A stretch of DNA of 64,000 bases, from positions 22,650 through 86,649 of IMG/VR virus record IMGVR_UViG_3300042445_001685, one strand, 5' to 3'. The stretch is from a virus. The position numbers and the translations under genes are program-made. The notes below the pieces were generated by a model that searched no databases, was not told where the DNA came from, and saw only the letters and a program-made list of their open reading frames with translations. How positions within the stretch are numbered: position 1 is the stretch's first letter; the number at the start of each line of letters is the position of its first letter. This document shows, in pieces, positions 29,511 through 43,761 of this stretch.

Positions 29511-29577
29511 AATACTTGAACTAGTCAAGTACTACATTGGAGATGAGGGAATTGCTCTCATATTGGATAAACTTTAG

Positions 29578-29651
29578 TGTCCTATACAGGATTCGAACCT
29601 GTGACCTTCTCGTTATGAGCGAGCTGCTCTAACCGGCTGAGCTAAAAGGAC
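29578..29651 (-). tRNA. tRNA with CAT anticodon (Met or Ile2)
   Basis: Full cloverleaf on the minus strand with loop CTCATAA and T-loop TTCGAAT. Acceptor stem has one T-T mismatch at pair 6. Met, fMet and lysidine-modified Ile cannot be separated by eye. Confidence 0.9.
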
Positions 29652-29656
29652 AATTT

Positions 29657-29728
29657 GTAGCGTAGCGTGGACTCGAACCACCCCCCAGGCTTATGAGACC
29701 TAGATGCAACCTTTACACCTTAACGCAA
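29657..29728 (-). tRNA. Second tRNA with CAT anticodon, weak acceptor stem
   Basis: Anticodon loop CTCATAA and T-loop TTCGAGT are clear. The acceptor stem shows two T-T mismatches and the T-stem one G-G, so it may be degenerate or need editing. Confidence 0.7.
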
Positions 29729-29736
29729 TTTATAAG

Positions 29737-29809
29737 CGGTCTGCACGGGGATCGAACCCGCAATCTTCGCAGTGACAGTGCGACGTGTTACCAATAACAC
29801 CTCCAGACC
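29737..29809 (-). tRNA. tRNA-Asp (GTC)
   Basis: Loop CTGTCAC, acceptor GGTCTGG/GCAGACC, T-loop TTCGATC. Confidence 0.92.
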
Positions 29810-29863
29810 AAAATGCCCGTCTGTTCCGAGCTGTCAACCACCAGCTGTTATACAGCTGTATAG

Positions 29864-29935
29864 TGGAGCTACCGGGATTCGAACCCGGAATAACAGAATG
29901 CAAATCTATCGTGATGCCAATTTCACTATAGCCCC
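29864..29935 (-). tRNA. tRNA-Ala (TGC)
   Basis: Loop TTTGCAT, acceptor GGGGCTA/TAGCTCC with one G-U, T-loop TTCGAAT. Identity from anticodon. Confidence 0.82.
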
Positions 29936-30010
29936 AGTTACTCGTCTTTCCGAGTCGTCAAATCTAGAAGCTGATTAAGCTATTCCTCCTAATACGAATA
30001 AAGAGCTCTG

Positions 30011-30082
30011 TACTGCGTACGGGATTCGAACCCGTGCCTTATCATAGAAAGTGATACGTGTTTACCCCTTCACTAACGCAGC
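30011..30082 (-). tRNA. tRNA-Glu (TTC)
   Basis: Loop CTTTCTA, stem TATCA/TGATA, acceptor GCTGCGT/ACGCAGT. Confidence 0.92.
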
Positions 30083-30088
30083 AATTTG

Positions 30089-30160
30089 AGCGGCTAGAGA
30101 GAATCGAACTCTCATCTTTAGATTGGAAGTCTAAAGTAATGACCATTATACGATAGCCGC
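30089..30160 (-). tRNA. tRNA-Gly (TCC)
   Basis: Loop CTTCCAA, stem TTTAGA/TCTAAA, perfect acceptor GCGGCTA/TAGCCGC. Confidence 0.92.
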
Positions 30161-30165
30161 AGTTG

Positions 30166-30239
30166 AGCTTCTGGACGGGATCGAACCGACTCTATTCTGG
30201 GTTACAAATCCAGTGCACCACCATTTGTGCGTCAGAAGC
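30166..30239 (-). tRNA. tRNA-Thr (TGT)
   Basis: Loop TTTGTAA, perfect acceptor GCTTCTG/CAGAAGC, T-loop TTCGATC. Confidence 0.9.
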
Positions 30240-30245
30240 AAATTT

Positions 30246-30350
30246 AAACTATTAGAGGCTATTGGGAGTCATCAGTGGCAGCCTTTCACCGTAAACTCGG
30301 CTTCCCAATCTTATCTGCACATCTATCTAACTTTTTACGCATAATAGTTT
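30246..30350 (-). ncRNA. Folded non-tRNA spacer RNA, 105 nt
   Basis: Closed by a perfect 9-bp stem (AAACTATTA at 30342-30350 with TAATAGTTT at 30246-30254). Inside, ATTGGGA/TCCCAAT (30303-30309, 30261-30267) and AGCC/GGCT stack further. No anticodon or T-loop. Part of the tRNA transcript; role unknown. Confidence 0.5.
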
Positions 30351-30359
30351 ATATTTTAA

Positions 30360-30431
30360 TTAGAGCCGGGCTATGAATCCGTTCTGCAGGTTAGCCCCTG
30401 CTGCTTTAACCTTTATAAGCTAACTCTAATT
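30360..30431 (-). tRNA. Degenerate or atypical tRNA-like element
   Basis: Acceptor TTAGAGT/GCTCTAA and a D-arm GCTT/AAGC are formed. The anticodon arm GCAGG/CCTGC leaves a 6-base loop without a proper U33, and the T-loop reads TTCATAG with T instead of the conserved A. Amino acid identity cannot be read. Confidence 0.5.
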
Positions 30432-30434
30432 TTG

Positions 30435-30508
30435 TACCCAAGGAGGGACTCGAACCCTCAATATCTAGATCCTAAGTCTAGCGTGTCTGCCAATTCCACC
30501 ACTCGGGC
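30435..30508 (-). tRNA. tRNA-Leu (TAG)
   Basis: Loop CTTAGGA, Leu-type D-arm (GTGGTGGAATTGGCAGACAC), short variable region, acceptor with G-U pairs. Confidence 0.85.
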
Positions 30509-30603
30509 ATTTGCCGCATGTGCGGCCACTTATCAATCGGTAGCTCCCTCTCGTTGTCCATCTGTGGGTGTAACACATTTGGTAGAGGGTCGAACCTTCA
30601 ATG

Positions 30604-30674
30604 AGGTCGGTGTTGGAATCGAACCAACGTTACAGAGTTTGCAATCCTGCGCCTAACCATTCGGCCAACCGACC
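30604..30674 (-). tRNA. tRNA-Cys (GCA)
   Basis: Loop TTGCAAA, perfect acceptor GGTCGGT/ACCGACC. Between 30509 and 30603 I see only a GCCGCA/TGCGGC hairpin and no tRNA. Confidence 0.92.
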
Positions 30675-30679
30675 AATTT

Positions 30680-30743
30680 AAACATCTAGCCTGACCTGCC
30701 AGACAGTACGTGTCGTCGATCGTGCGTTACGTAGTAGATGTTT
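30680..30743 (-). ncRNA. Folded leader of the first tRNA transcript, 64 nt
   Basis: A perfect 9-bp stem (AAACATCTA at 30735-30743 with TAGATGTTT at 30680-30688) closes a GC-richer interior. It lies directly after the promoter at 30762, so it forms the 5' end of the precursor. Confidence 0.5.
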
Positions 30744-30761
30744 TATCTTCTTTCTTATACT

Positions 30762-30792
30762 TAAAGATATGAACTTTATTTCTTTCTAGCAA
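30762..30792 (-). promoter_or_regulatory. Promoter of the first tRNA cluster
   Basis: TTG (30790-30792), 20-base spacer, TATCTTTA (30762-30769). The TTG sits in a hairpin AACTTTTTT/AAAAAAGTT that follows the HNH gene. Confidence 0.75.
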
Positions 30793-30801
30793 CTTTTTTT
30801 A

Positions 30802-31308
30802 CTAAAAAAATAAAAAAGTTTCCCATTCCTTTGGTATGTGTGTCATAGTTCTCATTAACATTAAATAGTGAGGTCTTTTTGGTTCTGGAATTTCCTTACC
30901 GTATTCCTCTAATGTTAAATCTGCTTTCTCATGATTACATGGTCTGCAGGCTGTTACTAAATTATCCCAAGCATCTTTTCCTCCTTTTGATTGAGGTATA
31001 ACATGGTCAAGTGTTAGTGTTCTTTGATTTGAACATCCGCAGTAAACACATTCGTAATTATCTCTTCTATAAATATTCTCTCTTGTTAGAGCTACTTTTT
31101 GAATATTATGTTTTACATATGTAAATACTCTAATAATAGAAGGTTTATAAATTGTTAATTCTGGGTTATACAGATTAAATGTTTCTGGATGTTCAGCTAT
31201 TACTTCAGCATTACCTTTATAAGAAATCACGAAAGCTCTTTCTGTACTTATAACTGATCTTGCGATAAAGCTGGCATCTACTACTAGTGCTTTTTGATAC
31301 TTACTCAT
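30802..31308 (-). CDS. HNH endonuclease
   Basis: 168 residues. ECVYCGCSNQRTLTLDHVIPQSKGGKD...NLVTACRPCN gives the HNH/McrA-type zinc and metal site (about 90-130), with a probable beta-rich N-terminal domain. It lies between two tRNA blocks, a common place for homing-type nucleases, which may have split or moved the array. Confidence 0.88.
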   Translation of the reverse strand: MSKYQKALVVDASFIARSVISTERAFVISYKGNAEVIAEHPETFNLYNPELTIYKPSIIRVFTYVKHNIQKVALTRENIYRRDNYECVYCGCSNQRTLTLDHVIPQSKGGKDAWDNLVTACRPCNHEKADLTLEEYGKEIPEPKRPHYLMLMRTMTHIPKEWETFLFF

Positions 31309-31340
31309 GATTTACTTTTTTTAATGAAACAATATATTTG

Positions 31341-31411
31341 CGCGAACCCTAGGAATCGAACCCAGCCGTCGAGGTTTTGGAGACCTGACCGACACCTTGT
31401 CTGTGGAACGC
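31341..31411 (-). tRNA. tRNA-Trp (CCA)
   Basis: Loop CTCCAAA and T-loop TTCGATT. The acceptor has two adjacent T-T mismatches at pairs 4 and 5. Confidence 0.85.
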
Positions 31412-31483
31412 ATTTGTAGGGTATCGCTTAACCTACCTAGATTAGCCTCATCTACTTAACCCTTATGAGGGACGATTTTTTTG

Positions 31484-31555
31484 AACCCATACCTGGACTT
31501 GAACCAGGACTGAAACGTTAGAAGCGTTTAGTTCTTCCGATTAAACTATACGGGC
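31484..31555 (-). tRNA. tRNA-Arg (TCT)
   Basis: Loop CTTCTAA, stem AAACG/CGTTT, acceptor GCCCGTA/TATGGGT with G-U pairs. The spacer 31412-31483 folds into small hairpins (CCCT/AGGG, TAGAT/ATCTA). Confidence 0.9.
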
Positions 31556-31560
31556 AGTTG

Positions 31561-31632
31561 AGGTCTTAGTAGGAGTCGAACCTACGTTCTATCGTTCGTA
31601 GCGATAAGTTTTTCCAATTAAACTATAAGACC
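31561..31632 (-). tRNA. tRNA-Arg (ACG)
   Basis: Loop CTACGAA, stem TATCG/CGATA, perfect acceptor GGTCTTA/TAAGACC. Inosine at A34 would extend decoding to CGC and CGA. Confidence 0.92.
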
Positions 31633-31636
31633 AAAT

Positions 31637-31706
31637 AAGAGAGGCTTTATTTAAGCTACTTTCTGCTATGCAACAGGGTAGGCAATTAGTCCTACATCTC
31701 TCTCTT
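31637..31706 (-). ncRNA. Cloverleaf-like spacer RNA without anticodon signals
   Basis: Closing stem AAGAGAG/CTCTCTT (7 bp) holds three hairpins: GTAGG/CCTAC, CTGTT/AGCAG and GCTT/AAGC. The outline mimics a cloverleaf, but no T-loop consensus is present. Confidence 0.45.
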
Positions 31707-31708
31707 TG

Positions 31709-31788
31709 TACCCCTGACTGGAGTCGAACCAGCAAGCCTGAGCGCCAAGTTTTAAGCCTGGTGTGTTTACCATTTTCACCACAGGGAT
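31709..31788 (-). tRNA. tRNA-Leu (TAA)
   Basis: Loop CTTAAAA, stem CCAGG/CTTGG, class II variable arm, acceptor ATCCCTG/CAGGGGT. Confidence 0.88.
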
Positions 31789-31795
31789 ATGTTTG

Positions 31796-31868
31796 TGTGA
31801 AAGATGGGACTCGAACCCACAATCTCCTGAACCACAATCAGACGCTTTACCAATTCAGCTACAATCAC
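31796..31868 (-). tRNA. tRNA-His (GTG)
   Basis: Loop TTGTGGT, extra G at -1 available, T-loop TTCGAGT. Two adjacent T-T mismatches in the acceptor (pairs 5 and 6). Confidence 0.85.
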
Positions 31869-31875
31869 CATATTG

Positions 31876-31945
31876 TACCGACTACAAGTTACGCTCTTGT
31901 CTGAGAATACTTATGAGATATTCTCGATCCTAGATCAAGTCGGTA
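31876..31945 (-). ncRNA. tRNA-mimic cloverleaf with a CAT-type anticodon loop
   Basis: An 8-bp closing stem (TACCGACT/AGTCGGTA) holds three arms in tRNA order: GATC/GATC, an 8-bp arm with the 7-base loop CTCATAA identical to the CAT tRNAs of this array, and ACAAG/CTTGT with a 7-base loop AGCGTAA. The T-loop consensus TTCRANY is absent. 31946-32075 has a GATAGGG/CCCTATC hairpin and nothing else I can name. Confidence 0.5.
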
Positions 31946-32075
31946 GTTGATAGGGAACCTCTTACCCTATCGCTGTACTATCTGATTTTAAAGTGTCTTA
32001 CCACGGGGCCCCGTTCGTACTTCCTTCTCCTGCATTCCTTAGATGCGTTGTGAGGACGGTGAGGAGGTTTTTTTG

Positions 32076-32158
32076 AGGAAAGCAGAGGTATCGAACCCCA
32101 TGCCCGAAGGCACGATACGCTTAGCAAGCGGTCTCAACTCCTAGTTGATTTACTTTCC
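32076..32158 (-). tRNA. tRNA-Ser (GCT)
   Basis: Loop TTGCTAA, class II variable arm with TTCG loop, acceptor GGAAAGT/GCTTTCC. Confidence 0.88.
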
Positions 32159-32163
32159 CTTTG

Positions 32164-32237
32164 TAGGTAATATAGGAATCGAACCTATAACCTCTCACGT
32201 ATCAGGCGAGTGCTCTAACCAATTGAGCTAATTACCT
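32164..32237 (-). tRNA. tRNA-Ile (GAT)
   Basis: Loop CTGATAC, stem CTCGC/GTGAG, perfect acceptor AGGTAAT/ATTACCT. Confidence 0.9.
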
Positions 32238-32244
32238 ATTTTTG

Positions 32245-32388
32245 TGCTCATAGCTGGAATCGAACCAACCTCGATAAGTCACTTACTCCAACCAACTGCT
32301 ACTTGTTACGTACCTTGAGCTTTTACGATTGACCGTCACGTTATCCCACTTCAGGTTGGGGAGCTACCACACTACCTGTTATACGAGC
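32245..32388 (-). tRNA. Oversized tRNA-like element, 144 nt
   Basis: The acceptor ends (GCTCGTA/TATGAGC) and a canonical T-arm (GTTGG-TTCGATT-CCAGC) are intact, but about 70 extra bases lie between. A second, weaker 5' acceptor candidate (GCTCA) occurs internally. Either an insertion or intron in a tRNA, or a 3' tRNA preceded by a spacer that mimics its acceptor. Anticodon unclear. Confidence 0.5.
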
Positions 32389-32397
32389 ATTTAATTG

Positions 32398-32469
32398 CGG
32401 GCCTGGGAGGAATCGAACCTCCATAAGATGATTAACAGTCATCCGTAATAACCTTTATACGACAAACCC
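32398..32469 (-). tRNA. tRNA-Asn (GTT)
   Basis: Loop CTGTTAA, stem GATGA/TCATC, acceptor GGGTTTG/CAGGCCC. Confidence 0.92.
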
Positions 32470-32474
32470 GGTTG

Positions 32475-32547
32475 TGGACCCTACAGGAATCGAACCTGTT
32501 CCTCTAGTTCTTCAGACTAGCGTACGCACCAGCTATACAAAAGGTCC
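32475..32547 (-). tRNA. tRNA-Phe (GAA)
   Basis: Loop CTGAAGA, stem CTAGT/ACTAG, acceptor GGACCTT/AGGGTCC. Confidence 0.92.
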
Positions 32548-32552
32548 AATTG

Positions 32553-32635
32553 TGGGATACTGTGGAATCGAACCACACGCTTCTTACAGCAACGATTTTA
32601 CAGACCGCTTATCACACCAGTGACTGAAGCATCCC
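32553..32635 (-). tRNA. tRNA-Tyr (GTA)
   Basis: Loop CTGTAAA, class II variable arm, acceptor GGGATGC/GTATCCC. Confidence 0.9.
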
Positions 32636-32641
32636 AATTTG

Positions 32642-32713
32642 ATCATTCTACAGGAATCGAACCTGCTTCTCCACCCTCCACGGGCAGCGTAGTCACCAAT
32701 CTACCAAGAACGA
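32642..32713 (-). tRNA. tRNA with unusual anticodon loop CGTGGAG (possibly TGG, Pro-like)
   Basis: Acceptor, D-arm and T-arm are sound. The 7-base anticodon loop is CGTGGAG, so position 33 is G, not the near-universal U, and the anticodon by position is TGG. A normal tRNA-Pro(TGG) exists at 33086, so this one may have another role. Confidence 0.7.
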
Positions 32714-32719
32714 AACTAT

Positions 32720-32799
32720 AACAAGCTTTCATCGGCAAATTACTAACTCATAATAGACTCCATATAGTCTTGAAAATACTTGCCGGTATTTTACTTGCT
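32720..32799 (-). ncRNA. Spacer RNA with predicted pseudoknot
   Basis: Closing helix AGCAAG/CTTGTT. A hairpin AAAATAC/GTATTTT carries loop CGGCAA, which is perfectly complementary to TTGCCG about 40 bases downstream; AGACT/AGTCT lies between. The 6-bp loop pairing suggests a defined tertiary fold. Confidence 0.5.
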
Positions 32800-32812
32800 A
32801 CCCAGAATTTTG

Positions 32813-32883
32813 TACCTCGTGATAGAATCGAACTATCGCCCTTTGCATGTAAAACAAATACGCTACCATTACGCCAACGAGGC
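32813..32883 (-). tRNA. tRNA-Val (TAC)
   Basis: Loop TTTACAT, stem TTTGT/GCAAA, acceptor GCCTCGT/ACGAGGT. Confidence 0.9.
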
Positions 32884-32937
32884 AAATCTAATTCTACGCT
32901 TCGGTCTAAAAGCCCTTCTATGAATTAGTAACAGTCT
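32881..32937 (-). repeat. Spacer repeat copy 1 (flanks tRNA-Lys)
   Basis: Bases 32881-32903 and 32915-32937 (23 nt each) are identical to 33015-33037 and 33056-33078; the middle differs (11 versus 18 nt). On the RNA, CTAATTC/GAATTAG closes the element. Confidence 0.8.
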
Positions 32938-32944
32938 TCTTTTG

Positions 32945-33017
32945 TACCCCCGGCTGGCCTCGAACCAGCTACCCCCGAGTTAAAAGCCCGGTGCCCGTCC
33001 ACATGAGCTTCGAAGGC
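32945..33017 (-). tRNA. tRNA-Lys (TTT)
   Basis: Loop CTTTTAA, stem CCGGG/CTCGG, acceptor GCCTTCG/CGGGGGT with several G-U pairs. Confidence 0.9.
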
Positions 33018-33078
33018 AAATCTAATTCTACGCTTCGAGGACTTACTCGCGTGGTCTTCTATGAATTAGTAACAGTCT
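33015..33078 (-). repeat. Spacer repeat copy 2
   Basis: Second copy of the element at 32881-32937: identical 23-nt ends, an 18-nt unrelated middle. The pair brackets tRNA-Lys and could mediate gain or loss of tRNAs by recombination. Confidence 0.8.
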
Positions 33079-33085
33079 CTTCTCG

Positions 33086-33161
33086 TCTGGTAGGCAGGAT
33101 TCGAACCTGCGTGCTCTAGCGTCCAAGGCCAGCGAGATAAACCGGACTCCTCTACTACCAG
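33086..33161 (-). tRNA. tRNA-Pro (TGG)
   Basis: Loop CTTGGAC with U33, stem CTGGC/GCTAG, perfect acceptor CTGGTAG/CTACCAG. 33162-33376 holds no convincing gene; a short open frame there runs through this tRNA and I do not accept it. Confidence 0.85.
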
Positions 33162-33376
33162 TGGTGAAGGGATTATTTTTTTAAAGTAGAATTCGCCCAT
33201 CTCAAAACTACTGTAATTTCCGTAAGCAAAGCCATCGGGCTGATTCCCTGTACTCATGTCTTGCATCGTTTTCTCCATATGGATTTCTCCACTACTTACT
33301 GATAATGCTTTCTTTACTAACCGTCCTACTTACTGATCAAGTGTTGGGATAGGCTTTCATTACTTACAATTATTTG

Positions 33377-33448
33377 TTGGCTTACTAGGATTCGAACCTA
33401 GACTAAAACAGTCAAAGTGTTTTGTGCTAACCGTTACACTATAAGCCA
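33377..33448 (-). tRNA. tRNA-Gln (TTG)
   Basis: Loop CTTTGAC, stem AAACA/TGTTT, perfect acceptor TGGCTTA/TAAGCCA. Confidence 0.92.
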
Positions 33449-33454
33449 ATATTG

Positions 33455-33538
33455 AGGAAGACGTGGGACTCGAACCCACAACAGTATTACCTGCTACCAC
33501 TTTTCAAGAGTGGCTCCTGATCCAGCCGGATGCCTTCC
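33455..33538 (-). tRNA. tRNA-Ser (TGA)
   Basis: Loop CTTGAAA, stem CCACT/AGTGG, class II variable arm, acceptor GGAAGGC/GTCTTCC. Confidence 0.9.
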
Positions 33539-33588
33539 CTATGCTTTATCCAATATGTCAATGAACTCTTATTCTTTATTTCTGTACC

Positions 33589-33619
33589 TAAAGATACGAT
33601 TTTTTTTTCTTTCTAGCAA
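33589..33619 (-). promoter_or_regulatory. Promoter of the second tRNA cluster
   Basis: TTG (33617-33619), 20-base spacer, TATCTTTA (33589-33596). Spacer sequence is nearly identical to that of the promoter at 30762. Confidence 0.75.
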
Positions 33620-33636
33620 CTTTTTTTTAATAAAAA

Positions 33637-33661
33637 ACCCGAATCTTTTTTTGATCCGGGT
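33637..33661 (-). terminator. Intrinsic terminator before the second tRNA cluster
   Basis: Stem CCCGGATC/GATTCGGG with an A7 loop, followed on the minus strand by TTTTTT. Ends the 47-residue gene transcript. Confidence 0.85.
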
Positions 33662-33697
33662 ACCTTACTTATAATATGTATTTTATACTATATCATA

Positions 33698-33841
33698 TCA
33701 TACCCCGGTACCTCCTTGTTTCGGTTCGTTATTATATCCAGCAAAGCCTAAAATGACATCCCCACATAACGAATCCGACCACGTATTCAATGCTCTTGTC
33801 GCTGTGCTAAGTTGTTGATGTATGTTTTGAATTGCTTTCAT
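33698..33841 (-). CDS. Small hypothetical protein
   Basis: 47 residues (MKAIQNIHQQLST...QGGTGV) from ATG at 33841, 20 bases after a promoter and followed by a strong terminator, so it is a stand-alone transcript. N-terminal half helical, C-terminus Gly-rich. Not recognised. Confidence 0.6.
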   Translation of the reverse strand: MKAIQNIHQQLSTATRALNTWSDSLCGDVILGFAGYNNEPKQGGTGV

Positions 33842-33860
33842 TTTATTTGCTTTCTATATA

Positions 33861-33891
33861 TAAATATATGAACTTTTCCATTCCAGTCCAA
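33861..33891 (-). promoter_or_regulatory. Promoter of the 47-residue gene
   Basis: TTG (33889-33891), 20-base spacer, TATATTTA (33861-33868). Confidence 0.75.
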
Positions 33892-33930
33892 CTATATTTT
33901 AATTTTTTTTCTTTGTGTTTTTATATATTA

Positions 33931-33961
33931 TAAATATACGAACTTTTATTTTATAAAACAA
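33931..33961 (-). promoter_or_regulatory. Second, tandem promoter
   Basis: TTG (33959-33961), 20-base spacer, TATATTTA (33931-33938), 70 bases upstream of the previous promoter. Its -33 box overlaps one end of a 15-bp inverted repeat. Confidence 0.7.
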
Positions 33962-34326
33962 CTACTGTTCTTTGGATTAATTTATCCGTTTATTAATTTT
34001 TTTTTCTTAACTGGCTCACATCCATCATTGTTAATTGACGTAAGTTTTTGTTCTAATTTGTCTACTCTGGAGTCTGTATAGGAAATACAGTCTGAGTGTA
34101 GTTTGTTTACTCGATCAACTTCCTGATCAATTCTACGATTTACTAATTCATCGTTTCTAGAAATCCAGTTCTGTATTTCAGTTAACTCTTTTTCTTGCTT
34201 TGCTACTTTGCTTGCTGTTCTAAACGCTACCACAACCCCCCATGCAAGGAGAGCTATACCAACCCCTAAAACAAATGCTAAAATTTGTTCCATAATTTAT
34301 AATTTTTATTTCAAAGAACAGTAGTT
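33960..34326. repeat. 15-bp inverted repeat flanking one gene
   Basis: AACTACTGTTCTTTG at 33960-33974 recurs as its exact reverse complement at 34312-34326. The pair brackets the gene at 33982-34293, which sits alone between tRNA-like genes. Confidence 0.7.
33982..34293 (-). CDS. Membrane-anchored coiled-coil protein
   Basis: 103 residues: a membrane segment at 4-24, then a long helix to about residue 90 and a basic end (KKKKLING). Topology is like that of the spanin-like protein at 190. It is enclosed by a 15-bp inverted repeat and interrupts the tRNA block. Not recognised. Confidence 0.6.
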   Translation of the reverse strand: MEQILAFVLGVGIALLAWGVVVAFRTASKVAKQEKELTEIQNWISRNDELVNRRIDQEVDRVNKLHSDCISYTDSRVDKLEQKLTSINNDGCEPVKKKKLING

Positions 34327-34335
34327 TAATTTTGT

Positions 34336-34432
34336 AGTCAGGACAGGATTCGAACCTGCTCCAGCTTTGCCATAAATAGTATATTTCAACTAAACCTTGG
34401 GGAGGTGCCACCAACCAATGGTCTCCTGACTG
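34336..34432 (-). tRNA. Atypical long tRNA-like element
   Basis: Perfect acceptor AGTCAGG/CCTGACT and T-arm GCAGG-TTCGAAT-CCTGT. The interior is about 20 bases too long; an anticodon arm GTTTA/TATAC with loop GTTGAAA (TGA) is possible but has one mismatch. Identity uncertain. Confidence 0.55.
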
Positions 34433-34437
34433 TTTGG

Positions 34438-34524
34438 AATCGGTGAGGGATTCGAACCCTCATCCCGCTTAGAAGCGGTGTTACCCTCTGTCGGTATTCA
34501 TTCCCGATTACACCAACCGATTCT
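34438..34524 (-). tRNA. Atypical long tRNA-like element
   Basis: Perfect acceptor AATCGGT/ACCGATT and T-arm GAGGG-TTCGAAT-CCCTC. A 5-bp GGTGT/ACACC arm encloses an extra TCGG/CCGA hairpin; the anticodon hairpin CCGC/GCGG leaves a 6-base loop TTCTAA. If read with one mismatch, TCT (Arg). Confidence 0.55.
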
Positions 34525-35308: not shown

Positions 35309-36199
35309 TTAATTGTTATGGTTATTTAATACTTTTGTTACTTCTGTTACTACATGTTCCCATGTTACTGGTCCTGTTTCGTCTGCGTAAGGAGCTGGAT
35401 CAGGTCTTCCTAATTTAATAAATGCTTCTACTCTTTCAACTGATGAAGCTGATTTATAATCTGAGAACCATTCTTCAAATTTTTCAAATGTTACTGGGTC
35501 ATGGTATACCATTTTAATTGGTTTGTAAGATGTATTAGTTCTTGAATAAACTTCATCAAAGTCTAATCCTAACTCTTTACATAATACTTCTCCGTCTTGT
35601 AAGATAGTAAATTTATCTCCTTCTAAGTAAGGTGTAAAATACCCTACTCTTTCTGCTTCCCAGTTACCCATTCTAAAAGCTGCATCATCTGCATCTCTAA
35701 ATTCTTGTCTACAGTCTGGATAAATTGCATGATCACCTGCATGGATACCCATTGCAATATCACAAGTCTCTCCTGTTCTATTTGCAACTGATAAAGCTAC
35801 TGCTTGAGTAATAGAAGCAAATATTTTGTTTCTGTTAGGAACAACTGTTGCTTTCATATTATCTTCTGCATAGTGACCTTCTGGTACATCTTCACCTCCT
35901 GTTACTAAAGCTGAATCTAGTAAATCAACTAATCCTTTTAATTGGATTTGGCGATACATAACTTCATTGTAGTTTTTTCCTACTACCGTAATTGTACCTA
36001 ATTGATCTTGTTCCGCTTTTTCAGAGCAACCATTAAGGTACTCTACTAATGATTGAGCTCTCTCTAACTCTACTCTGTGTTTTTGACCATAGTCAAAGCT
36101 AATAGCTGTAACTGTGTCATACTCTTTTAGACATCTAAGTAATAAGGTACTTGAGTCCATTCCTCCTGATAAGGATACTACAACATGTTTTTTAGACAT
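35309..36199 (-). CDS. queC: 7-cyano-7-deazaguanine (preQ0) synthase
   Basis: 296 residues, longer than the usual ~230. The ATP pyrophosphatase loop SLSGGMDSSTL is at 9-19, with ISFDYGQKH near 34-42 and VPNRNKIFASI. It converts CDG to preQ0 with ammonia and ATP. The C-terminal CX8-9CX2CX2C zinc site of bacterial QueC is absent: the region before VERVEAFIKLGRPDP has no cysteines. So it is a variant enzyme, apart from the other que genes. Confidence 0.9.
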   Translation of the reverse strand: MSKKHVVVSLSGGMDSSTLLLRCLKEYDTVTAISFDYGQKHRVELERAQSLVEYLNGCSEKAEQDQLGTITVVGKNYNEVMYRQIQLKGLVDLLDSALVTGGEDVPEGHYAEDNMKATVVPNRNKIFASITQAVALSVANRTGETCDIAMGIHAGDHAIYPDCRQEFRDADDAAFRMGNWEAERVGYFTPYLEGDKFTILQDGEVLCKELGLDFDEVYSRTNTSYKPIKMVYHDPVTFEKFEEWFSDYKSASSVERVEAFIKLGRPDPAPYADETGPVTWEHVVTEVTKVLNNHNN

Positions 36200-37828: not shown

Positions 37829-37859
37829 TAAAGATACGAAATTTATTACATTTCTCCAA
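37829..37859 (-). promoter_or_regulatory. Promoter giving a leaderless message
   Basis: TTG (37857-37859), 20-base spacer, TATCTTTA (37829-37836); ATG at 37824. Confidence 0.7.
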
Positions 37860-38301
37860 CAGCTTCTACTAAAGCTTTTTTAACTGCTCCTGAGAATGAT
37901 GTTTTATTAAATGGTAAATTATCGTCGTTCAAATCTAAGAAAGTCGATTGAACTGTAGTGTTTGCTTCTCCTTGACCCCAATATTCTTCTCCTTTTACTA
38001 ATAGTCTTAATTTTACAATAGTAATTTTTTTAGTTTTAGAGAATGGTCCTAAAGAGGTATTTGTGGAAGGTGCTTCAACTGATAACACTTCTACTTCAAC
38101 TGGAGTTCCATCTTCACATATATCGTATTTTTCAGATAGAATTTCTTCAGTCATTTGTTTAATTCCGAATACAACTCTTTCTTTTTTCATTTCTGGTGCT
38201 TCAACTTGTGAAGACACTTTTGTTACTTTATAACATTCTTTAGTAGCTGTATCAGCTGATACTAGAAATACTAATGCTAATAATAAAAATAATTTTTTCA
38301 T
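37846..38301 (-). CDS. Exported protein linked to the CsgG-like region
   Basis: 151 residues: signal peptide (MKKLFLLLALVFLVSA), then a mature domain with two Cys and beta-rich character (KTKKITIVKLRLLVKGEEYWGQG). It is the last gene of a run of exported proteins that includes a CsgG-like lipoprotein, so a periplasmic partner of that channel is possible. No family recognised. Confidence 0.65.
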   Translation of the reverse strand: MKKLFLLLALVFLVSADTATKECYKVTKVSSQVEAPEMKKERVVFGIKQMTEEILSEKYDICEDGTPVEVEVLSVEAPSTNTSLGPFSKTKKITIVKLRLLVKGEEYWGQGEANTTVQSTFLDLNDDNLPFNKTSFSGAVKKALVEAVGEM

Positions 38302-38315
38302 AATACTAAACTGTT

Positions 38316-38384
38316 TTATCTTCCAAAAAGGAAATTTGATACCTTATCGTAAAACCTTTCAAATAATTGATTTAATTTTTTCAT
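38316..38384 (-). CDS. Tiny peptide gene
   Basis: 22 residues (MKKLNQLFERFYDKVSNFLF...), amphipathic and basic. It starts three bases after the upstream stop, which fits the tight packing here; otherwise unsupported. Confidence 0.35.
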   Translation of the reverse strand: MKKLNQLFERFYDKVSNFLFGR

Positions 38385-38386
38385 AA

Positions 38387-39814
38387 TTAAAATGTTAATT
38401 TACCTCCTGTTAATATTTGGTAATTTAAAAATTCTTTACCTGCTTCGTATACTCCTGTAAAACTTACATTAAACTTAAATGTCTTAGTTATTTTTAAATC
38501 CCATGAATTAAATGGTACTACTATTATACCTGCATCCCACCATTTACCTTCATAGAACTGAGTGAATGGAGAGTAAACTCCTAATACTAGTACGCTAGTA
38601 CTAACTCTATCACTTAGTTTAAAACTACTATGTGCTCCACCTACAGCAGATAGGTTTAGTAGAGATCTTTCTCCCATTTTACCCGCTGTAAAATTAACAC
38701 CAAACATTCCTGTTAGTTTATTATTTACTTTATAAGATTCTAATACGGTAGTTGTACTAAAGAAGTTTTTATCAAAATCCATCATAATAGATTGAGCACC
38801 TACTGTATTTAATTTTTTAGATTTATTAATCCAAGACTTATAAAAAGTAACGTTCAAATTATTAACACCTGAAGTAAAATTAAATAATACTCCTTTAATT
38901 CTAGTTCCCCTAGTATTGGCGTGAGTTATACTTCCTACAAATCTAAAATTCTGAGTTTGATCAGTATTTGCAATAGCTACTATATCCCCAGAAGCAATTA
39001 AACTTCCTACACTCTTAGCTGCATTGTTAGATTTTTTACCACCACCTGATGTTCCTCCGCCTGAACTTCCTCCGTCAGCTGATCCTCCATCTACAGAGTT
39101 CGATAAAGAGTTAGCTAAGTTGTTACTACTCCCGCTTGACCCTTCTACAGACGACTCAGACGTAGGACTTCCTGTCGAAGCTGGTTGATTTGGATTTGTA
39201 GTGTCTCCTCCTTGCTGAGGTGTTCCTGTTGAAGATCCTGTAGGTGTTCCTCCAGAAGGGTTAGGATTGGTTTGGCTTCCTTGATTTTGGTTACCTGTTG
39301 GGCTTGTTCCAGCAGTTCCTGTATTTGTTCCTGAATTGGTATTTGAATCGGATTTTTTTTCATCTTTTGAGTTTTGGTTAGTACTACCTCCTTCACTTTG
39401 TGAAGAATTTGTTACGCCTCCGGCTGTAGCTGTCATAGAGCTTCCCATAGATCCTCCTATGGTTGCTATGGATTGAGCTACGTTTGTTACTGATATTACA
39501 TTTGTAACAACAGTTAATGTATTAGCGACTGTTATATTAGTTATACTATTTACAATTGCTGTAGTTACTGATTCACAAGGTGAGTTAGAATTTTGTTGAG
39601 ATACTTGAGCTATCCAGTTATCAAAGACTCCTGAGGAGAAATCATTTGCGGAAAATGTACTTTGGTTATCGAAGTAGTTTACCATTACCCCTCCACCGGC
39701 TGGTACGTAAATACTCTTTGATACTAGGGTACAAGGATCTTTGTAGGTATAGGTGTACTGGCCCCAGGAGGTCAGGACTGAAAATAGTGAAAATAATAAT
39801 ATCCATTTTTTCAT
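38387..39814 (-). CDS. Outer-membrane beta-barrel protein with a low-complexity linker
   Basis: 475 residues. Signal peptide (MKKWILLFSLFSVLTSWGQ); residues ~135-265 are extremely rich in Ser, Thr, Asn, Gly, Gln and Pro; residues ~270-475 have alternating strands and end in GGKLTF, a terminal Phe typical of outer-membrane barrels. The gene follows a CsgG-like lipoprotein gene by one base. It probably sits in the host outer membrane and shows the linker outside or in the periplasm. Not recognised as a named family. Confidence 0.65.
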   Translation of the reverse strand: MKKWILLFSLFSVLTSWGQYTYTYKDPCTLVSKSIYVPAGGGVMVNYFDNQSTFSANDFSSGVFDNWIAQVSQQNSNSPCESVTTAIVNSITNITVANTLTVVTNVISVTNVAQSIATIGGSMGSSMTATAGGVTNSSQSEGGSTNQNSKDEKKSDSNTNSGTNTGTAGTSPTGNQNQGSQTNPNPSGGTPTGSSTGTPQQGGDTTNPNQPASTGSPTSESSVEGSSGSSNNLANSLSNSVDGGSADGGSSGGGTSGGGKKSNNAAKSVGSLIASGDIVAIANTDQTQNFRFVGSITHANTRGTRIKGVLFNFTSGVNNLNVTFYKSWINKSKKLNTVGAQSIMMDFDKNFFSTTTVLESYKVNNKLTGMFGVNFTAGKMGERSLLNLSAVGGAHSSFKLSDRVSTSVLVLGVYSPFTQFYEGKWWDAGIIVVPFNSWDLKITKTFKFNVSFTGVYEAGKEFLNYQILTGGKLTF

Positions 39815-40524
39815 TAACTACGAAATATCCCCTTTTTAATCATTTTACTTACTACTCTTGAAGAAGCAGTTTCTAATGACTTTTTGGTAGATACTCCGAT
39901 TGTTGATTGATTGAATTTTGTATCGTCGAGTCCGTCTAGTAGATTTGCTTTCTTCACTGTAACTGCTTCACCGGAACCTGATCCAGTAATTATTTCACCA
40001 GTTTGTGCATCCACAAATCTTATCTGTAACCCTATTATTGTTTTTTGTTTTATTTCTATTCCGTTGCCTCCTATTTCTTCATCTTCTCCAACTGAGAAAT
40101 CATATACTTCAATGTATACAAAATATCTAGCTAAAACAACATTTCCTTTGACAACTATTTTATTTGATGAGATTCCTTTTGCTGATGCTTTATCTTGAGC
40201 AATCATGTTTTGTTTTATCTCATTTCTTTCTTCTGTAAATACAAATCTATTTGTTGATTCTAAATACTCTAATACAATATTTGAAACCCCTAAACCAACT
40301 CTTTTGTCTTTTAATTCAGGATACATTTCATATAACTCTTCATTAATACCAATTTTTAATATTTGAATTGGTATTTGAATAGTATCAGTATAATCAGATA
40401 CAACTTCTAGAGACTGTTTCTTTTCGAAATCAGCCTTATACTCTTCAGTTTTAGTAGATCCTACCTTTTGGGCACAACCTACTATACTGAAAGCTAGAAA
40501 TAATATTGTGAATAATCTTACCAA
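39814..40524 (-). CDS. CsgG-like outer-membrane lipoprotein
   Basis: 236 residues. Lipobox IVGC (Cys17). The mature part has GLGVSNIVLEYLESTNRFVFTEERNEIKQNMIAQ, VVKGNVVLARY, GLQIRFVDAQTGEIITGSGSGEA and a C-terminal helical end, the order of CsgG/HfaB secretion-channel proteins. In bacteria CsgG forms a nonameric pore exporting curli subunits. Curli-type CsgG genes are known in some marine T4-like phages, with unclear role. Here it may help export the neighbouring surface proteins. Confidence 0.75.
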   Translation of the reverse strand: MVRLFTILFLAFSIVGCAQKVGSTKTEEYKADFEKKQSLEVVSDYTDTIQIPIQILKIGINEELYEMYPELKDKRVGLGVSNIVLEYLESTNRFVFTEERNEIKQNMIAQDKASAKGISSNKIVVKGNVVLARYFVYIEVYDFSVGEDEEIGGNGIEIKQKTIIGLQIRFVDAQTGEIITGSGSGEAVTVKKANLLDGLDDTKFNQSTIGVSTKKSLETASSRVVSKMIKKGIFRS

Positions 40525-40841
40525 GGTTCTTCTTCTGTTTTTGGTTTAGCTGGAGCAGGTGCTGCTTGAACAGGTGCTGCTTGTTGCTTAACGTTGTTAG
40601 AGTTTGAATTGTTTGATTGTTGTTTTTGTTGGTTAGTGTTATTGTTTTGTAAGTTAATAACAACAGGTGCTGCAGCTGGAGCTGCTACTTCAGTTTTTGG
40701 TTCTTCTTTATCTTCAGAGTGACCTCCAAATAGTTGTGTTGATAACCAAATACCTCCTCCACCAATTACTGTAGTTAATGTTCCAATAATTGTTTTTTTC
40801 AATCCTGACCAAGTACCGTCGTTGTTTGTTTCTTCTGACAT
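40518..40841 (-). CDS. Membrane-anchored protein with Asn/Gln- and Ala/Pro-rich tail
   Basis: 107 residues: one hydrophobic segment at ~15-38, then a periplasmic or surface tail of low complexity (NNNTNQQKQQSNNSNSNN type). Overlaps the CsgG-like start by seven bases. Function unknown. Confidence 0.6.
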   Translation of the reverse strand: MSEETNNDGTWSGLKKTIIGTLTTVIGGGGIWLSTQLFGGHSEDKEEPKTEVAAPAAAPVVINLQNNNTNQQKQQSNNSNSNNVKQQAAPVQAAPAPAKPKTEEEPW

Positions 40842-40844
40842 AGC

Positions 40845-41576
40845 TTATTTTTTTATTATTTTAAATGTTTTTGCGAAGTTCTTACTTCTTATATTTAATA
40901 AATAGTTACCACTTGGGTAAGCAGTTAAATCTCCATAAGTAGTATTAGGTCCTTTTGCAAAACGCTCTTTCCTTATATTTAGAAGATTACCTCCCATATC
41001 GAAGATTATGATTTCATAATCCCCACTTACCGGTAAAGACATCTCCATTGTTACAATTCCGTCTGTAGGTACTGGGTATGCTCTTCCATGGATTCCATCT
41101 TCATCTAATGGTGCTGCATTTCTATTATAGTTGATATATCCATCCGTATTAGTTACAGCGATATCCCACCCCTGTACATCTCCTGCTGTCTTTCTTCCTA
41201 CTGTTATAGGAGTCTGAGCCCAGTTAGTACTAAGTACTGTGAATTTTAATATGAATAGTTCTGTTGGATTTGTTATAGAATGCTGTCCATGAGTCTTATC
41301 ATACCCACCCCATCTTACTTTTCCACTTCCAGTATCCATTGTATATGTTAACCAGGTCTGTGCTTTTTCAGATAAGATTATTTCTGAGAATTGTAAGATG
41401 CTTTGGTCATAATTTAAAGCAAACTCTAAACTCCCTAATACATTTCCATTTGTTTGAATTGTTACAGGAAGGTCTATAGTATTAGATGGAGACACTGTAA
41501 TCCCAGGTACTTGAAACTGTACCTGAGAATATAGTGAATTTATTGATAATAGTGCTATGATTATATAGCGTAACAT
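40845..41576 (-). CDS. Secreted cohesin-like protein with T9SS sorting domain
   Basis: 243 residues. Signal peptide (MLRYIIIALLSINSLYSQ). Residues ~20-150 resemble a cohesin fold (VPGITVSPSNTIDLPVTIQT, GSLEFALNYDQSILQFSEI). Residues ~165-243 match the type A C-terminal sorting domain of the type IX secretion system (AYPVPTDG..., YEIIIFDMGGNLL, AYPSGNYLLNIRSKNF..KIIKK). T9SS occurs only in Bacteroidota, so the phage probably uses the host machine to place this protein on the cell surface. Two neighbours carry dockerin-like modules that could bind it. Confidence 0.8.
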   Translation of the reverse strand: MLRYIIIALLSINSLYSQVQFQVPGITVSPSNTIDLPVTIQTNGNVLGSLEFALNYDQSILQFSEIILSEKAQTWLTYTMDTGSGKVRWGGYDKTHGQHSITNPTELFILKFTVLSTNWAQTPITVGRKTAGDVQGWDIAVTNTDGYINYNRNAAPLDEDGIHGRAYPVPTDGIVTMEMSLPVSGDYEIIIFDMGGNLLNIRKERFAKGPNTTYGDLTAYPSGNYLLNIRSKNFAKTFKIIKK

Positions 41577-41577
41577 A

Positions 41578-42669
41578 TTAGTTATGTCCTGTTCCGTTTG
41601 CGTCTCCTAATACTAGTAGGTAGTAATTGGCTGCTGTTGTATTGTTGATGTTAGCTGATAAGAACGTAGCTACCCCTGGAATTGTTGCTGATAAACTTGT
41701 TGTAGCTGCTGCAATTTGAGTGTATTGAGCTTCTGTAAAGAATAAGATATCAGGATTGTTTGGGTAAGCTGTTAGACCTTGAGCCAATCTAGAGAATAAT
41801 GTATATGAATCTGAAATTGTAATTCCATTTGCTTGGTTAGGGTTAGCAGTATAGAATTGAATTCCAGTTGGTGTTTGTAATCCTGTAGCAATTTGAGCCA
41901 TCATATCAGCATCTGCTGCAGATAAAGCTGCTGGAGCTGTAATACCTGGATTTACTTTTACTCTAATTTGCCAGTAGTTTTGATCTAAGTTAGTTGTGAA
42001 TTCTGCTACTCCTGTTGAAGCCGCTGTATTAACAGTCATTACATCTACCCAAGTTGTTCCGTTTGAAGATTTTTGTAATACAACCGGTATATCTGAAGCT
42101 GGGTTAGTTGGGCTGTTTAAGAATGTAGCAGCATATTCAAATACGGGTTCTGTGAACGCACCTCCGTAGTTATGTAATCCTAATGTTGTATCAGTTCCAT
42201 TTGCTAGGGTACCATAAGCAGGATAAGCTGTTGCTCCTGAGAATGACATAGTAGTTACAGCTCCATTAGTATAACCTGCTTTAAATGGTAAAGCTATATT
42301 GAACATTGCTCCGTCAGCAATATTGAAAGCAACATCTGCTCCGGTGTAAACCCATGTAACTGTTACATTTCCTTCAGTAGCGTTTACTAATGTTTGGAAG
42401 TAACTGTTTGTTTCGGTCCCAGTGTATGTTACTGTCGGAGAAGCAAATACGTTTTTGTCGTACCAAAATCTGTACTGTAATGCTTTGATAGCTGTAGAAC
42501 CAGCGTTATCATAGTAAATTGCAACGTTTGTAGGTGTTGCTCCAATTGGTGCTAGGTTGTAACTAGCGTCAAATATCAAGTAAGGCTTAGTAGCATCAGG
42601 TGCGGTAGTTTGTGCAAATCCTGTTAATGATACTAAAACTACACCTAATACTAAAAGTAATTTTTTCAT
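41578..42669 (-). CDS. Secreted protein with cohesin-like and dockerin-like modules
   Basis: 363 residues. Signal peptide ending at GFAQ. The first half reads like a cohesin-type beta-sandwich (ALQYRFWYDKNVFASPTVTY). The last ~95 residues (ANGITISDSYTLFSRL..., FFTEAQYTQI, IPGV) match the C-terminus of the next gene, a dockerin-like module common in Bacteroidota surface proteins. It ends at LGDANGTGHN. It lacks a T9SS tail and may be held on the surface by the cohesin-like neighbour. It is preceded by a CTATTTATAA element and a long leader. Confidence 0.7.
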   Translation of the reverse strand: MKKLLLVLGVVLVSLTGFAQTTAPDATKPYLIFDASYNLAPIGATPTNVAIYYDNAGSTAIKALQYRFWYDKNVFASPTVTYTGTETNSYFQTLVNATEGNVTVTWVYTGADVAFNIADGAMFNIALPFKAGYTNGAVTTMSFSGATAYPAYGTLANGTDTTLGLHNYGGAFTEPVFEYAATFLNSPTNPASDIPVVLQKSSNGTTWVDVMTVNTAASTGVAEFTTNLDQNYWQIRVKVNPGITAPAALSAADADMMAQIATGLQTPTGIQFYTANPNQANGITISDSYTLFSRLAQGLTAYPNNPDILFFTEAQYTQIAAATTSLSATIPGVATFLSANINNTTAANYYLLVLGDANGTGHN

Positions 42670-42730
42670 TTCTTTTGTTTTTAAGTTATTTTTATTTCAC
42701 AACCTGGTGCTTATGCACTCTCATACCTTT

Positions 42731-42738
42731 TATAAATA
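42731..42738 (-). promoter_or_regulatory. Late-promoter-like motif
   Basis: TATTTATA preceded by C on the minus strand, no TTG at the -33 distance; 62 bases before the secreted protein gene. The leader contains a perfect GTGC-ATAA-GCAC hairpin. Confidence 0.45.
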
Positions 42739-42747
42739 GTCGCAACT

Positions 42748-43749
42748 TTAGTTGCTATATCCTAATCTTGTTATATAGTAACTCGAAACTCCTCCTGATA
42801 TAGGATTGTTTATTGTTACTGATTGTACCCCTGGGATTGTTGTTTTTAAGTTTAATGCACTTCCACTAATTGAACTCCATTGGGATGATGTAAATATCCT
42901 ACTATCAGGAGGTGATGCTGCAAACGAGTTTATTAATCCATTTCTTCTAGCAAATATTGTGTAAGTATCTGATATTGTTACTCTACCGTCATTATTAACA
43001 TCAAATCTAAAAAAGTCTCTACTTCTTAAAGCTAGTGTTCCTAAAGTTACATTATTTGAAATCTGTGCATCACTTACTTGTAATGTAGGTAAAGTTGGAG
43101 GAGTAAATGTTATGTAGTATTCTATAGAAGGATTTGTTGGTGTTGAAAATACATATCTTCCTGTAGCATCTGTTGTCGCTGTTGTTACTAAAGCCCAAGG
43201 AGTAAAAGTTACTACATAATCAAATTCTATCACATATGGAAGTGCTTGATTATTAGGTAAATCATTCCATCTACCTGCTCCTACAAATTGAACATAATCT
43301 TCATTACCTGCGTTATTAGGTTCACCTGGATTCCATGATTGATAAGAATAGGGTTCTCCTGTTACCCATCTCCATTGACCCTCGACTGCTTCATCTGTTA
43401 ATCCTATCCATCCTGAAGGCCATAGGTTGAATAAAAAGTTATTTTCAGCTGCTGATGTTACAGTTACTAAATAACCTCCCATATTGGCACATGCCTGTCT
43501 TGCATCTGTCCAGAAAGCACTTCCAGTTGATCTGTAATAGGAATGTCCGTTATAGTTTTGTTGAGATGTAAATCCTGTCAAAGTAGGTGTTGTTCTACTA
43601 TACAACTGTACTTGTACACCCGGTATTCCTACAGCGTTTGATCCGTAGATATAACCGGAGTGCGTAAAGGTTTGACCGTACGTAGATAGAATACCCCCTA
43701 GTATTAGTAGAGGGTATAACATTTTTACTATTTTGGCTAGTATATTCAT
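42748..43749 (-). CDS. Secreted C-type lectin with dockerin-like module
   Basis: About 333 residues from ATG at 43749 (the frame is open to 43794, inside the next gene). Signal peptide ending near TYGQ. Residues 30-55 look like a carboxypeptidase-regulatory beta domain. Residues ~65-178 are a C-type lectin domain: WIGLTDEAVEGQWRWV, the EPN sugar/calcium triplet at 143-145 and WND at 161-163; the disulfide cysteines are mostly absent. Residues 248-262 (DVNNDGRVTISD) form a dockerin-type calcium loop, and the rest matches the C-terminus of the gene at 41578. EPN favours mannose-type sugars. Confidence 0.82.
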   Translation of the reverse strand: MNILAKIVKMLYPLLILGGILSTYGQTFTHSGYIYGSNAVGIPGVQVQLYSRTTPTLTGFTSQQNYNGHSYYRSTGSAFWTDARQACANMGGYLVTVTSAAENNFLFNLWPSGWIGLTDEAVEGQWRWVTGEPYSYQSWNPGEPNNAGNEDYVQFVGAGRWNDLPNNQALPYVIEFDYVVTFTPWALVTTATTDATGRYVFSTPTNPSIEYYITFTPPTLPTLQVSDAQISNNVTLGTLALRSRDFFRFDVNNDGRVTISDTYTIFARRNGLINSFAASPPDSRIFTSSQWSSISGSALNLKTTIPGVQSVTINNPISGGVSSYYITRLGYSN

Positions 43750-43753
43750 TTCA

Positions 43754-43761
43754 TATAAATA
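43754..43761 (-). promoter_or_regulatory. Late-promoter-like motif
   Basis: GCTATTTATA, four bases before the ATG at 43749, which would give a nearly leaderless message. Confidence 0.45.

Follow-up and report, generated by a model that had tools for sequence, protein, structure and literature searches.

A Block of Phage Genes as a Probable Surface-Display Set Built on Cohesin-Dockerin and Type IX Secretion Parts

The DNA considered here is a window of 64,000 nucleotides (positions 22,650 to 86,649 of IMG/VR virus record IMGVR_UViG_3300042445_001685), taken from an 86.6-kb viral record that is itself a fragment. The minus strand of the window carries, from 37846 to 43749, a cassette of seven open reading frames (ORFs), transcribed from high to low coordinates in the order lectin protein, gp014, gp015, gp016, gp017, gp018 and gp019. 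I will use the gene numbers of the nearest named relative, Flavobacterium phage vB_FspM_immuto (Immutovirus, 160 kb; host Flavobacterium sp. LMO8), hereafter immuto, which is annotated with T4-like gp20 and gp23. The window from 38300 to 49400 matches immuto at 86% identity over 99%, and the gene order is the same, bar one nuclease gene that immuto has before its lectin. The annotation of immuto calls the cassette genes lectin, cohesin or hypothetical proteins. The original prediction, made from the letters of the window, had counted five adjacent exported proteins; these are present, but the set is larger, since gp016 lies inside it and gp019 belongs to it too. A block of about six such genes recurs in many large viruses that infect Flavobacterium-type bacteria. 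It is probably best seen as a surface-display set that the phage builds on cohesin-dockerin parts, otherwise familiar from the cellulose-degrading complexes of bacteria, and on parts of the type IX secretion system (T9SS): the infected cell appears to be made to show exchangeable sugar-binding proteins on a scaffold. Signal peptides throughout, and the membrane span of gp016, were assigned by eye and not by a predictor.

Two of the proteins, gp014 and gp015, make up what I will call the scaffold. In gp015, Pfam finds a cohesin (PF00963, E 4.8e-10) and a Por_Secre_tail domain (PF18962, E 2.1e-8). Tails of the latter kind direct export via the T9SS, and that of gp015, judged by its sequence, would be an export signal and possibly a surface anchor too. 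It is present in 46 of 48 separate gp015 homologues (the other two are truncated ORFs) and in none of 45 gp014 homologues; gp014 itself has neither the tail nor any Pfam match. In many relatives outside the Immutovirus type the two proteins are a single ORF of about 630–670 amino acids (53 ORFs in the first 104 loci), and the tail is found in all 53 of these fused scaffolds. The scaffold of Immutovirus is split into two proteins, with a signal peptide on each. At one locus (L201, 10060–10063) a stop codon splits a scaffold that is open in relatives, and the second part has no signal peptide.

The structure predicted for one fused scaffold (locus L034, 630 amino acids; predicted local distance difference test (pLDDT) 77, predicted template-modelling score (pTM) 0.62) has cohesin folds at residues 27–183 and 404–538, with best Z scores of 14.2 and 14.6 against cellulosomal cohesins. 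Between them lie an immunoglobulin (Ig)-like module and dockerin-like helices, and a terminal beta domain coincides with the Pfam T9SS tail. By this model of a fused homologue, the N-terminal half of gp014 is predicted to be a cohesin fold. The cohesin-X-dockerin end of a Clostridium thermocellum scaffoldin (PDB 3kcp) aligns to residues 30–306 of the model over 235 residues (Z 13.4), with a root-mean-square deviation of 9.3, so that the likeness lies in the order of modules and not in one rigid body. Searched against the PDB, the profile of the scaffold family finds the ScaB dockerin (4uyp, E 7.9e-4) and, more weakly, T9SS tails (8glk, E 0.015). A pattern for the first Ca2+ loop, sought over the whole protein, occurs in 36 of 36 fused scaffolds and in 0 of 21 split gp014 proteins; the second-loop pattern GD[AVL]N occurs in 35 of 36 and 21 of 21.

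Table 1. Genes and motifs of the cassette (positions are those of the window).
Feature	Position	Strand	Description
head protein (gp013 homologue)	42748..43749	-	signal peptide (by eye), C-type lectin inserted in X/CNA-B-like module, dockerin-like module with first Ca2+ loop
gp014	41578..42669	-	signal peptide (by eye), N-terminal cohesin fold (predicted), X-like Ig module, dockerin-like C-terminus, degenerate first loop
gp015	40845..41576	-	signal peptide (by eye), cohesin, T9SS C-terminal sorting tail
gp016	40518..40841	-	single membrane span (by eye), acidic Ala/Pro/Asn/Gln-rich tail, terminal Trp
gp017	39814..40524	-	exported protein, borderline CsgG-like (PF03783)
gp018	38387..39814	-	signal peptide, small two-Cys N-terminal domain, long helix, low-complexity linker, 12-strand outer-membrane-type barrel (predicted)
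gp019	37846..38301	-	exported 151-amino-acid gp017 paralogue without two gp017 segments
TATTTAT motif	42732..42738	-	69 nt before gp014; candidate late promoter element of operon
TATTTAT motif	43755..43761	-	12 nt before lectin start
TATTTAT motif	40898..40904	-	63 nt before gp016, within gp015

The lectin protein will be called the head protein, since other domains may take the place of the lectin. In the window it matches Lectin_C (PF00059, E 9.1e-17), with matches to Dockerin_1 (E 0.03) and SdrD_B (E 2.3e-4) that fall below the Pfam cut-off. EPN and WND motifs occur in all 22 proteins of its cluster and in 41 of 41 across three lectin clusters. The C-terminal half is common to gp014 and the lectin protein (phmmer E 5.9e-13, residues 181–358 of gp014 against 174–348 of the 348-amino-acid lectin ORF). 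The claims first made for these three proteins have fared well, with one reservation: the cohesin with its sorting tail and the EPN-type C-type lectin are both there, and the two neighbours do share a C-terminal half, but the dockerin-like end of gp014 lacks the first Ca2+ loop.

Across loci the X-dockerin stays constant at the C-terminus of the protein in the lectin position, and the binding part varies. The 51 unique head proteins fall into eight clusters: 22 proteins are plain C-type lectins, 15 are C-type lectins with an inserted LamG/ConA, 4 are lectins with Ig repeats, and the rest form five small clusters, with PA14 and GEVED among their Pfam domains. Lectin_C was tallied in 24 of 31 and 28 of 38 head proteins and Dockerin_1 (E ≤ 0.01) in 1 of 31 and 18 of 38. 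As to the first Ca2+ loop, its whole-protein pattern occurs in 49 of 49 head proteins, its columns are invariant in alignments A3 and A5, and in the latter, which is of head proteins, D250, N252 and D261 are invariant in 31 of 31. The second-loop pattern GD[AVL]N was found in none of the 49, and the T9SS tail in none of 88. No catalytic hydrolase family is among the Pfam matches listed for the heads (lectin, LamG, PA14, GEVED, Ig-type and others), the sole enzyme-like label being Laminin_G_3, which is named for the lectin/glucanase superfamily. In the Immutovirus type the head gene precedes gp014; in most loci of the fused type it follows gp018 or gp019. By eye, the heads of two loci (L071 and L097) look nidogen-like, a label that Pfam did not give. 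A search of the source record, itself a fragment, for the RVT_1 domain of a diversity-generating retroelement found none. A hypothetical protein of the pelagiphage HTVC008M (L119, 10638–11963) joins, by eye, a PA14-like N-terminal part to curlin-type repeats; it would amount to a curli fibre tipped with a sugar-binding domain, which parallels the swapping of heads.

How widely the block is kept together was assessed in viral contigs. Scans with gp015 gave 27 loci, those with gp017 gave 301 matches and those with the scaffold 349, of which the best 80 were kept in each of the last two cases; the kept loci are the ones examined, and the two sets share some contigs and are not independent. The gp017 set comprises 56 nonredundant loci, 41 of them with enough flanking sequence, and the scaffold set, from 80 fetched (76 with an ORF, 45 with at least 7 kb downstream), comes to 41 nonredundant loci. 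In the latter, all six components are present in 41 of 41 (gp016 to gp019 and the T9SS tail 41, the head 41). In the adequately flanked gp017 loci, cohesin, gp014 part, gp018 and gp019 are each present in 41 of 41, and gp016 in 40 of 41, the locus scored as lacking it being L034, though another listing shows gp016 there. The cassette is thus conserved as a unit in all, or almost all, of the examined loci that have enough flank. Two outcomes that would have spoken against the original prediction, a lack of cohesin or dockerin folds in predicted structures and of clustering in other phages, were not what was found.

The full set occurs in a 308-kb record (L061), and the largest contig with a scaffold match is one of 434 kb (L153), whose flank is too short to score the other genes. 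The capsid protein of immuto matches 21 of 47 carrier records, which may be fragments; the best match has 83% identity along the whole protein, and the poorest have 26% along part of it or cover short pieces only. To judge from these sequences the phage backbones that carry the cassette are diverse. Among named phages (50,697 records), matches occur only in four immuto records. A gp017 scan of 84,980 species genomes gave two loci. One contig (L105) is viral-like, with tail-collar and GH19 endolysin genes (by eye) and a match to the immuto capsid (E 4e-11), and the other (L106; 12.6 kb) has a GH19-type endolysin (by eye) and is phage-like. Among 397 sampled Flavobacteriaceae and 395 sampled Bacteroidota genomes, gp017 was found only in the genome that contains this second, phage-like contig. 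The scaffold profile matched 27 other genomes of 199, only at profile positions 507–629, which are the T9SS tail end. The cassette is absent from the cells sampled, and a host origin was sought and not found, in genome searches that scored only some candidates per genome.

The remaining four proteins look like a unit of the cell envelope. All 55 and all 61 unique gp016 homologues in two counts end in Trp, the 55 in ESW, DPW, DSW or EPW, an ending that resembles a motif by which a partner might dock. For the cassette proteins PHROGs yielded nothing informative; its gp016 matches to a "Zot-like toxin" (E 0.0011) and "hol-like chemotaxis" (E 0.0021) fall on the membrane span and the biased tail and were set aside. 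gp017, which is 67–86% identical to 19 relatives in alignment A1, exceeds the cut-off of the CsgG family PF03783 narrowly (21.3 bits against 20.8, E 1.9e-4). The family is found at E ≤ 0.01 in 4 of 20 homologues, a profile comparison with 13 true CsgGs (11 from Flavobacteriaceae and those of E. coli and HTVC008M) gave a probability of 6.6%, and a sequence search of the PDB gave no match at E ≤ 0.1. On this evidence a CsgG identity is borderline. A lipobox pattern occurs in 16 of 56 unique homologues, making the label of lipoprotein a weak one. gp017 and gp019 are paralogous (hhalign of alignments A1 and A4, probability 96%, E 3.9e-9). A match of the gp019 profile to ribosomal protein S1 (E 7.7e-5, positions 35–82) is formally significant and was taken for chance.

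The predicted structure of gp018 (pLDDT 62, pTM 0.51) shows a small N-terminal domain, a helix (pLDDT 58–73), a disordered stretch and a 12-strand barrel (barrel blocks 64–87). Its best structural matches are autotransporter translocators (NalP, Z 21.5), to whose pore helix the gp018 helix as modelled aligns; FapF (Z 16.0), NanC and KdgM match too. Because 12-strand barrels of other kinds match as well, the model makes "12-strand outer-membrane barrel" a safe description and "autotransporter" not. Two sequence matches were set aside: the best in the PDB (mL77, E 0.012), which falls in a low-complexity stretch, and that to the N-terminus of CsgF (probability 4%, E 0.009). Among known anti-phage defence systems, PADLOC matched the seven window proteins only through PD-T4-6 on gp018 (E 0.0084, residues 98–232, mostly low-complexity). 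The outer-membrane barrel originally proposed is therefore borne out by the model, whereas of the CsgG-like lipoprotein a borderline family match survives and little of the lipoprotein.

When the cassette is expressed may be judged from a motif, TATTTAT, derived from immuto. There it precedes 18 of 29 late gene starts against 12 of 65 early ones (Fisher p 7e-5), late and early being set by genome region and the motif being counted within 60 nt with a gap of at least 15 nt. It lies no more than 120 nt upstream of the scaffold's first gene in 17 of 17 split loci (1.0 expected) and 23 of 35 fused loci (3.8 expected), and before gp016 in 19 of 52 (1.9 expected), head genes in 11 of 42 (1.6 expected) and endolysin genes in 14 of 29 (1.6 expected). 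It precedes none of 55 gp017, 50 gp018 or 48 gp019 genes, a distribution that fits an operon read from its first genes. A GH19 endolysin gene is near the cassette in 30 of the 56 gp017 loci, 26 of the 41 adequately flanked and 24 of the 41 scaffold-chosen loci. Late timing is supported by these counts, and the motif together with the nearby endolysin suggests that the cassette is probably expressed late. In 23 of 56 loci the cassette also contains a member of a family of small membrane-type proteins, and 11 of 56 have a Phage_holin_4_1 protein close by.

Other neighbours are less constant. An Endonuclease_NS gene is near the cassette in 8 of 56 loci (L002, 10443–11021, and seven others), mostly with a signal peptide; it adjoins the lectin gene in immuto, and the window has none. 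A small exported-type protein with HExxH (25 of 25) adjoins the cassette in 25 of 56 loci, often on the opposite strand (e.g., L063, 7129–7584, minus). Farther off, the window has 23 clustered tRNA genes (29577–34522) and a QueC homologue (35309–36199), and immuto carries queuosine and DpdA-like genes. In immuto, a run of genes for glycosyltransferases and sugar modification (L107, 29172–39988) offers another possible route to a change of the host surface.

I put at about an even chance the reading that the cassette is a late phage operon by which an infected Bacteroidota cell is led to display a modular scaffold that binds glycans. The proteins would be exported by Sec, and the scaffold of gp014 and gp015 would then cross the outer membrane through the T9SS of the host, as its C-terminal tail and the role of such tails suggest, and stay on the surface. 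The exchangeable head protein, which has no tail, may attach by its X-dockerin to a scaffold cohesin. It could then either ride through the T9SS with the scaffold, a passage that a folded lectin could perhaps make and on which the consulted text of PMC10202324 is silent, or leave by the phage's own envelope unit, in which gp016 would sit in the inner membrane and the outer membrane would hold gp017, gp019 and the barrel of gp018. Once on display, the heads would attach to sugars on the surface of host-type cells. Receptors on the infected cell and on what debris it leaves would be masked, so that there would be less superinfection and fewer progeny lost, and neighbouring cells might be held together. 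The purposes offered at the outset (a block to superinfection, aggregation, the spread of progeny) are candidate uses of such a coat.

Several observations weigh against this reading. No head is within reach in two of the 41 adequately flanked gp017 loci (L058 and L085; 39 of 41 have one), the scaffold of L106 has no T9SS tail, and the gp014 end without the first loop makes a three-part chain doubtful in the phage of the window. An endolysin close by in 26 of 41 loci fits a role in lysis. As for timing, the immuto cassette sits amid replication and nucleotide genes, and under the rule of 60 nt with a gap of at least 15 nt, TATTTAT precedes none of its three cassette starts; motifs before the lectin and gp014 genes are visible in the sequence, one with a gap under 15 and the other more than 60 nt off. 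The motif also precedes 7 of 44 replication or nucleotide genes (1.4 expected), and is weaker in more distant loci (scaffold gene 14 of 65, 4.1 expected; gp016 3 of 58, 1.7 expected). Related loci, moreover, are not independent samples in any of these motif counts.

Four other explanations have to be weighed. The coat might serve superinfection exclusion and nothing else, by hiding the receptor; T5 Llp is of this receptor-protection type. Swapping sugar-binding heads would fit the varied glycans of hosts, and the endonuclease gene near some cassettes is in keeping with exclusion, but the late-type motifs suggest action after the time when exclusion matters most, and no receptor is known for the phage of the window, so that I consider this explanation unlikely, if a serious one. 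The late-type motifs and nearby endolysins raise the possibility of a role in egress, which was not among the purposes first listed: gp017, gp018 and gp019, with gp016, would help to open the outer membrane when the cell lyses, while the lectin scaffold would prevent progeny from adhering to debris or be secondary. The small membrane-type and holin families and the motif before endolysin genes agree with this, and the accessible part of the report on Melnitz (PMC9004378) proposes that phage CsgG acts in lysis. Immuto, however, has annotated endolysins and a holin elsewhere, such an endolysin is out of reach in 15 of 41 loci, and lysis needs neither a T9SS tail nor cohesins nor swapping lectin heads; egress as the whole account seems to me distinctly unlikely.

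Less credible still is a curli-like (type VIII) secretion system, with gp017 as the CsgG channel, gp018 and gp019 in place of CsgF and CsgE, and secreted fibres as in pelagiphages, which carry CsgG and CsgF with curlin repeats according to the part of PMC9599517 available. The PF03783 match of gp017 and the resemblance of the gp018 barrel to FapF, among others, are set against the lack of any significant profile match to true CsgG, CsgF or CsgE, the failure of profiles A1 to A5 to match any of ten HTVC008M proteins, curli genes included, and the absence of the curlin family from the Pfam matches of the scanned window and the head proteins. I regard it as improbable. The last possibility is that the lectin complex finishes on virions after their release, or in their surroundings, as an adhesin, helping them to stick to surfaces or hosts. 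Such a use would accord with the late-type motif, and hypervariable regions in gut phages have been predicted to contain folds of the C-type lectin kind (PMC9853417, as far as its accessible text goes). The signal peptides of the head, the scaffold, gp017, gp018 and gp019 and the T9SS tail would, however, remove the proteins from the cytoplasm, where tailed virions are assembled, and the cassette is distant from the structural genes of immuto, which leaves this very improbable.

Surface display of a modular scaffold can be compared with several known systems. The scaffold has the cohesin-X-dockerin order found at the end of C. thermocellum CipA, and the pair CttA/ScaE of Ruminococcus flavefaciens likewise combines a binding protein bearing an X-dockerin with a surface-anchored cohesin. 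Unlike cellulosomes, the cassette is encoded by phages, no enzyme was found in it, and a T9SS tail replaces the S-layer homology or sortase anchor; unlike cellulosomal dockerins, the heads lack a second-loop GDxN and gp014 lacks the first loop. RemA and SprB are T9SS-secreted cell-surface adhesins of Flavobacteria, which the cassette resembles in its C-terminal sorting tail and lectin-type adhesion, but its lectin and its tail are on separate proteins, probably joined by cohesin and dockerin. The modelled gp018 is like autotransporters and FapF in its 12-strand barrel and, more tentatively, in an N-terminal helix that aligns with the pore helix, and unlike them in a predicted disordered linker of about 150 residues between the two.

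To my knowledge, structures built by phages on infected cells are known mainly from the curli genes of pelagiphages, and their purpose is debated. The curli operons of pelagiphages and Melnitz (PMC7029224, PMC9599517 and PMC9004378, in their accessible parts) are, like the cassette, phage export operons for adhesive surface proteins, absent from the host and common to distant phage lineages; the cassette differs in having cohesin-dockerin and T9SS parts and no curlin match or significant CsgG or CsgF match. "Sibling capture" is proposed for the pelagiphage genes in what could be seen of PMC7029224, and the portion of PMC9004378 at hand reports no clumping in Melnitz cultures despite csgGF, which advises caution in assuming aggregation. 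The parts of the present system are known, and phage-made surface assemblies are known from pelagiphages, but a phage set of cohesin, dockerin and T9SS parts was not reported in the literature searched, a scope short of most subscription papers and preprints.

The cassette may answer the same need as pelagiphage curli, and appears to do so in a second and unrelated way; its presence in a cultured phage and host pair (immuto and Flavobacterium sp. LMO8) makes the question testable. Display of this kind would also carry cohesin-dockerin assembly over to viruses and have phages use the T9SS for proteins of their own. A bolder version, which I offer tentatively and consider more doubtful than probable, is that large Bacteroidota phages share horizontally a dedicated machine in which exchangeable lectins without a tail are loaded, through contacts of cohesin and dockerin, onto a scaffold exported by the T9SS. 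The dying host would thus receive a programmable coat for binding glycans, and with it the phage would govern superinfection and what becomes of its progeny. If true, such a coat would be a new kind of viral engineering of the host surface.

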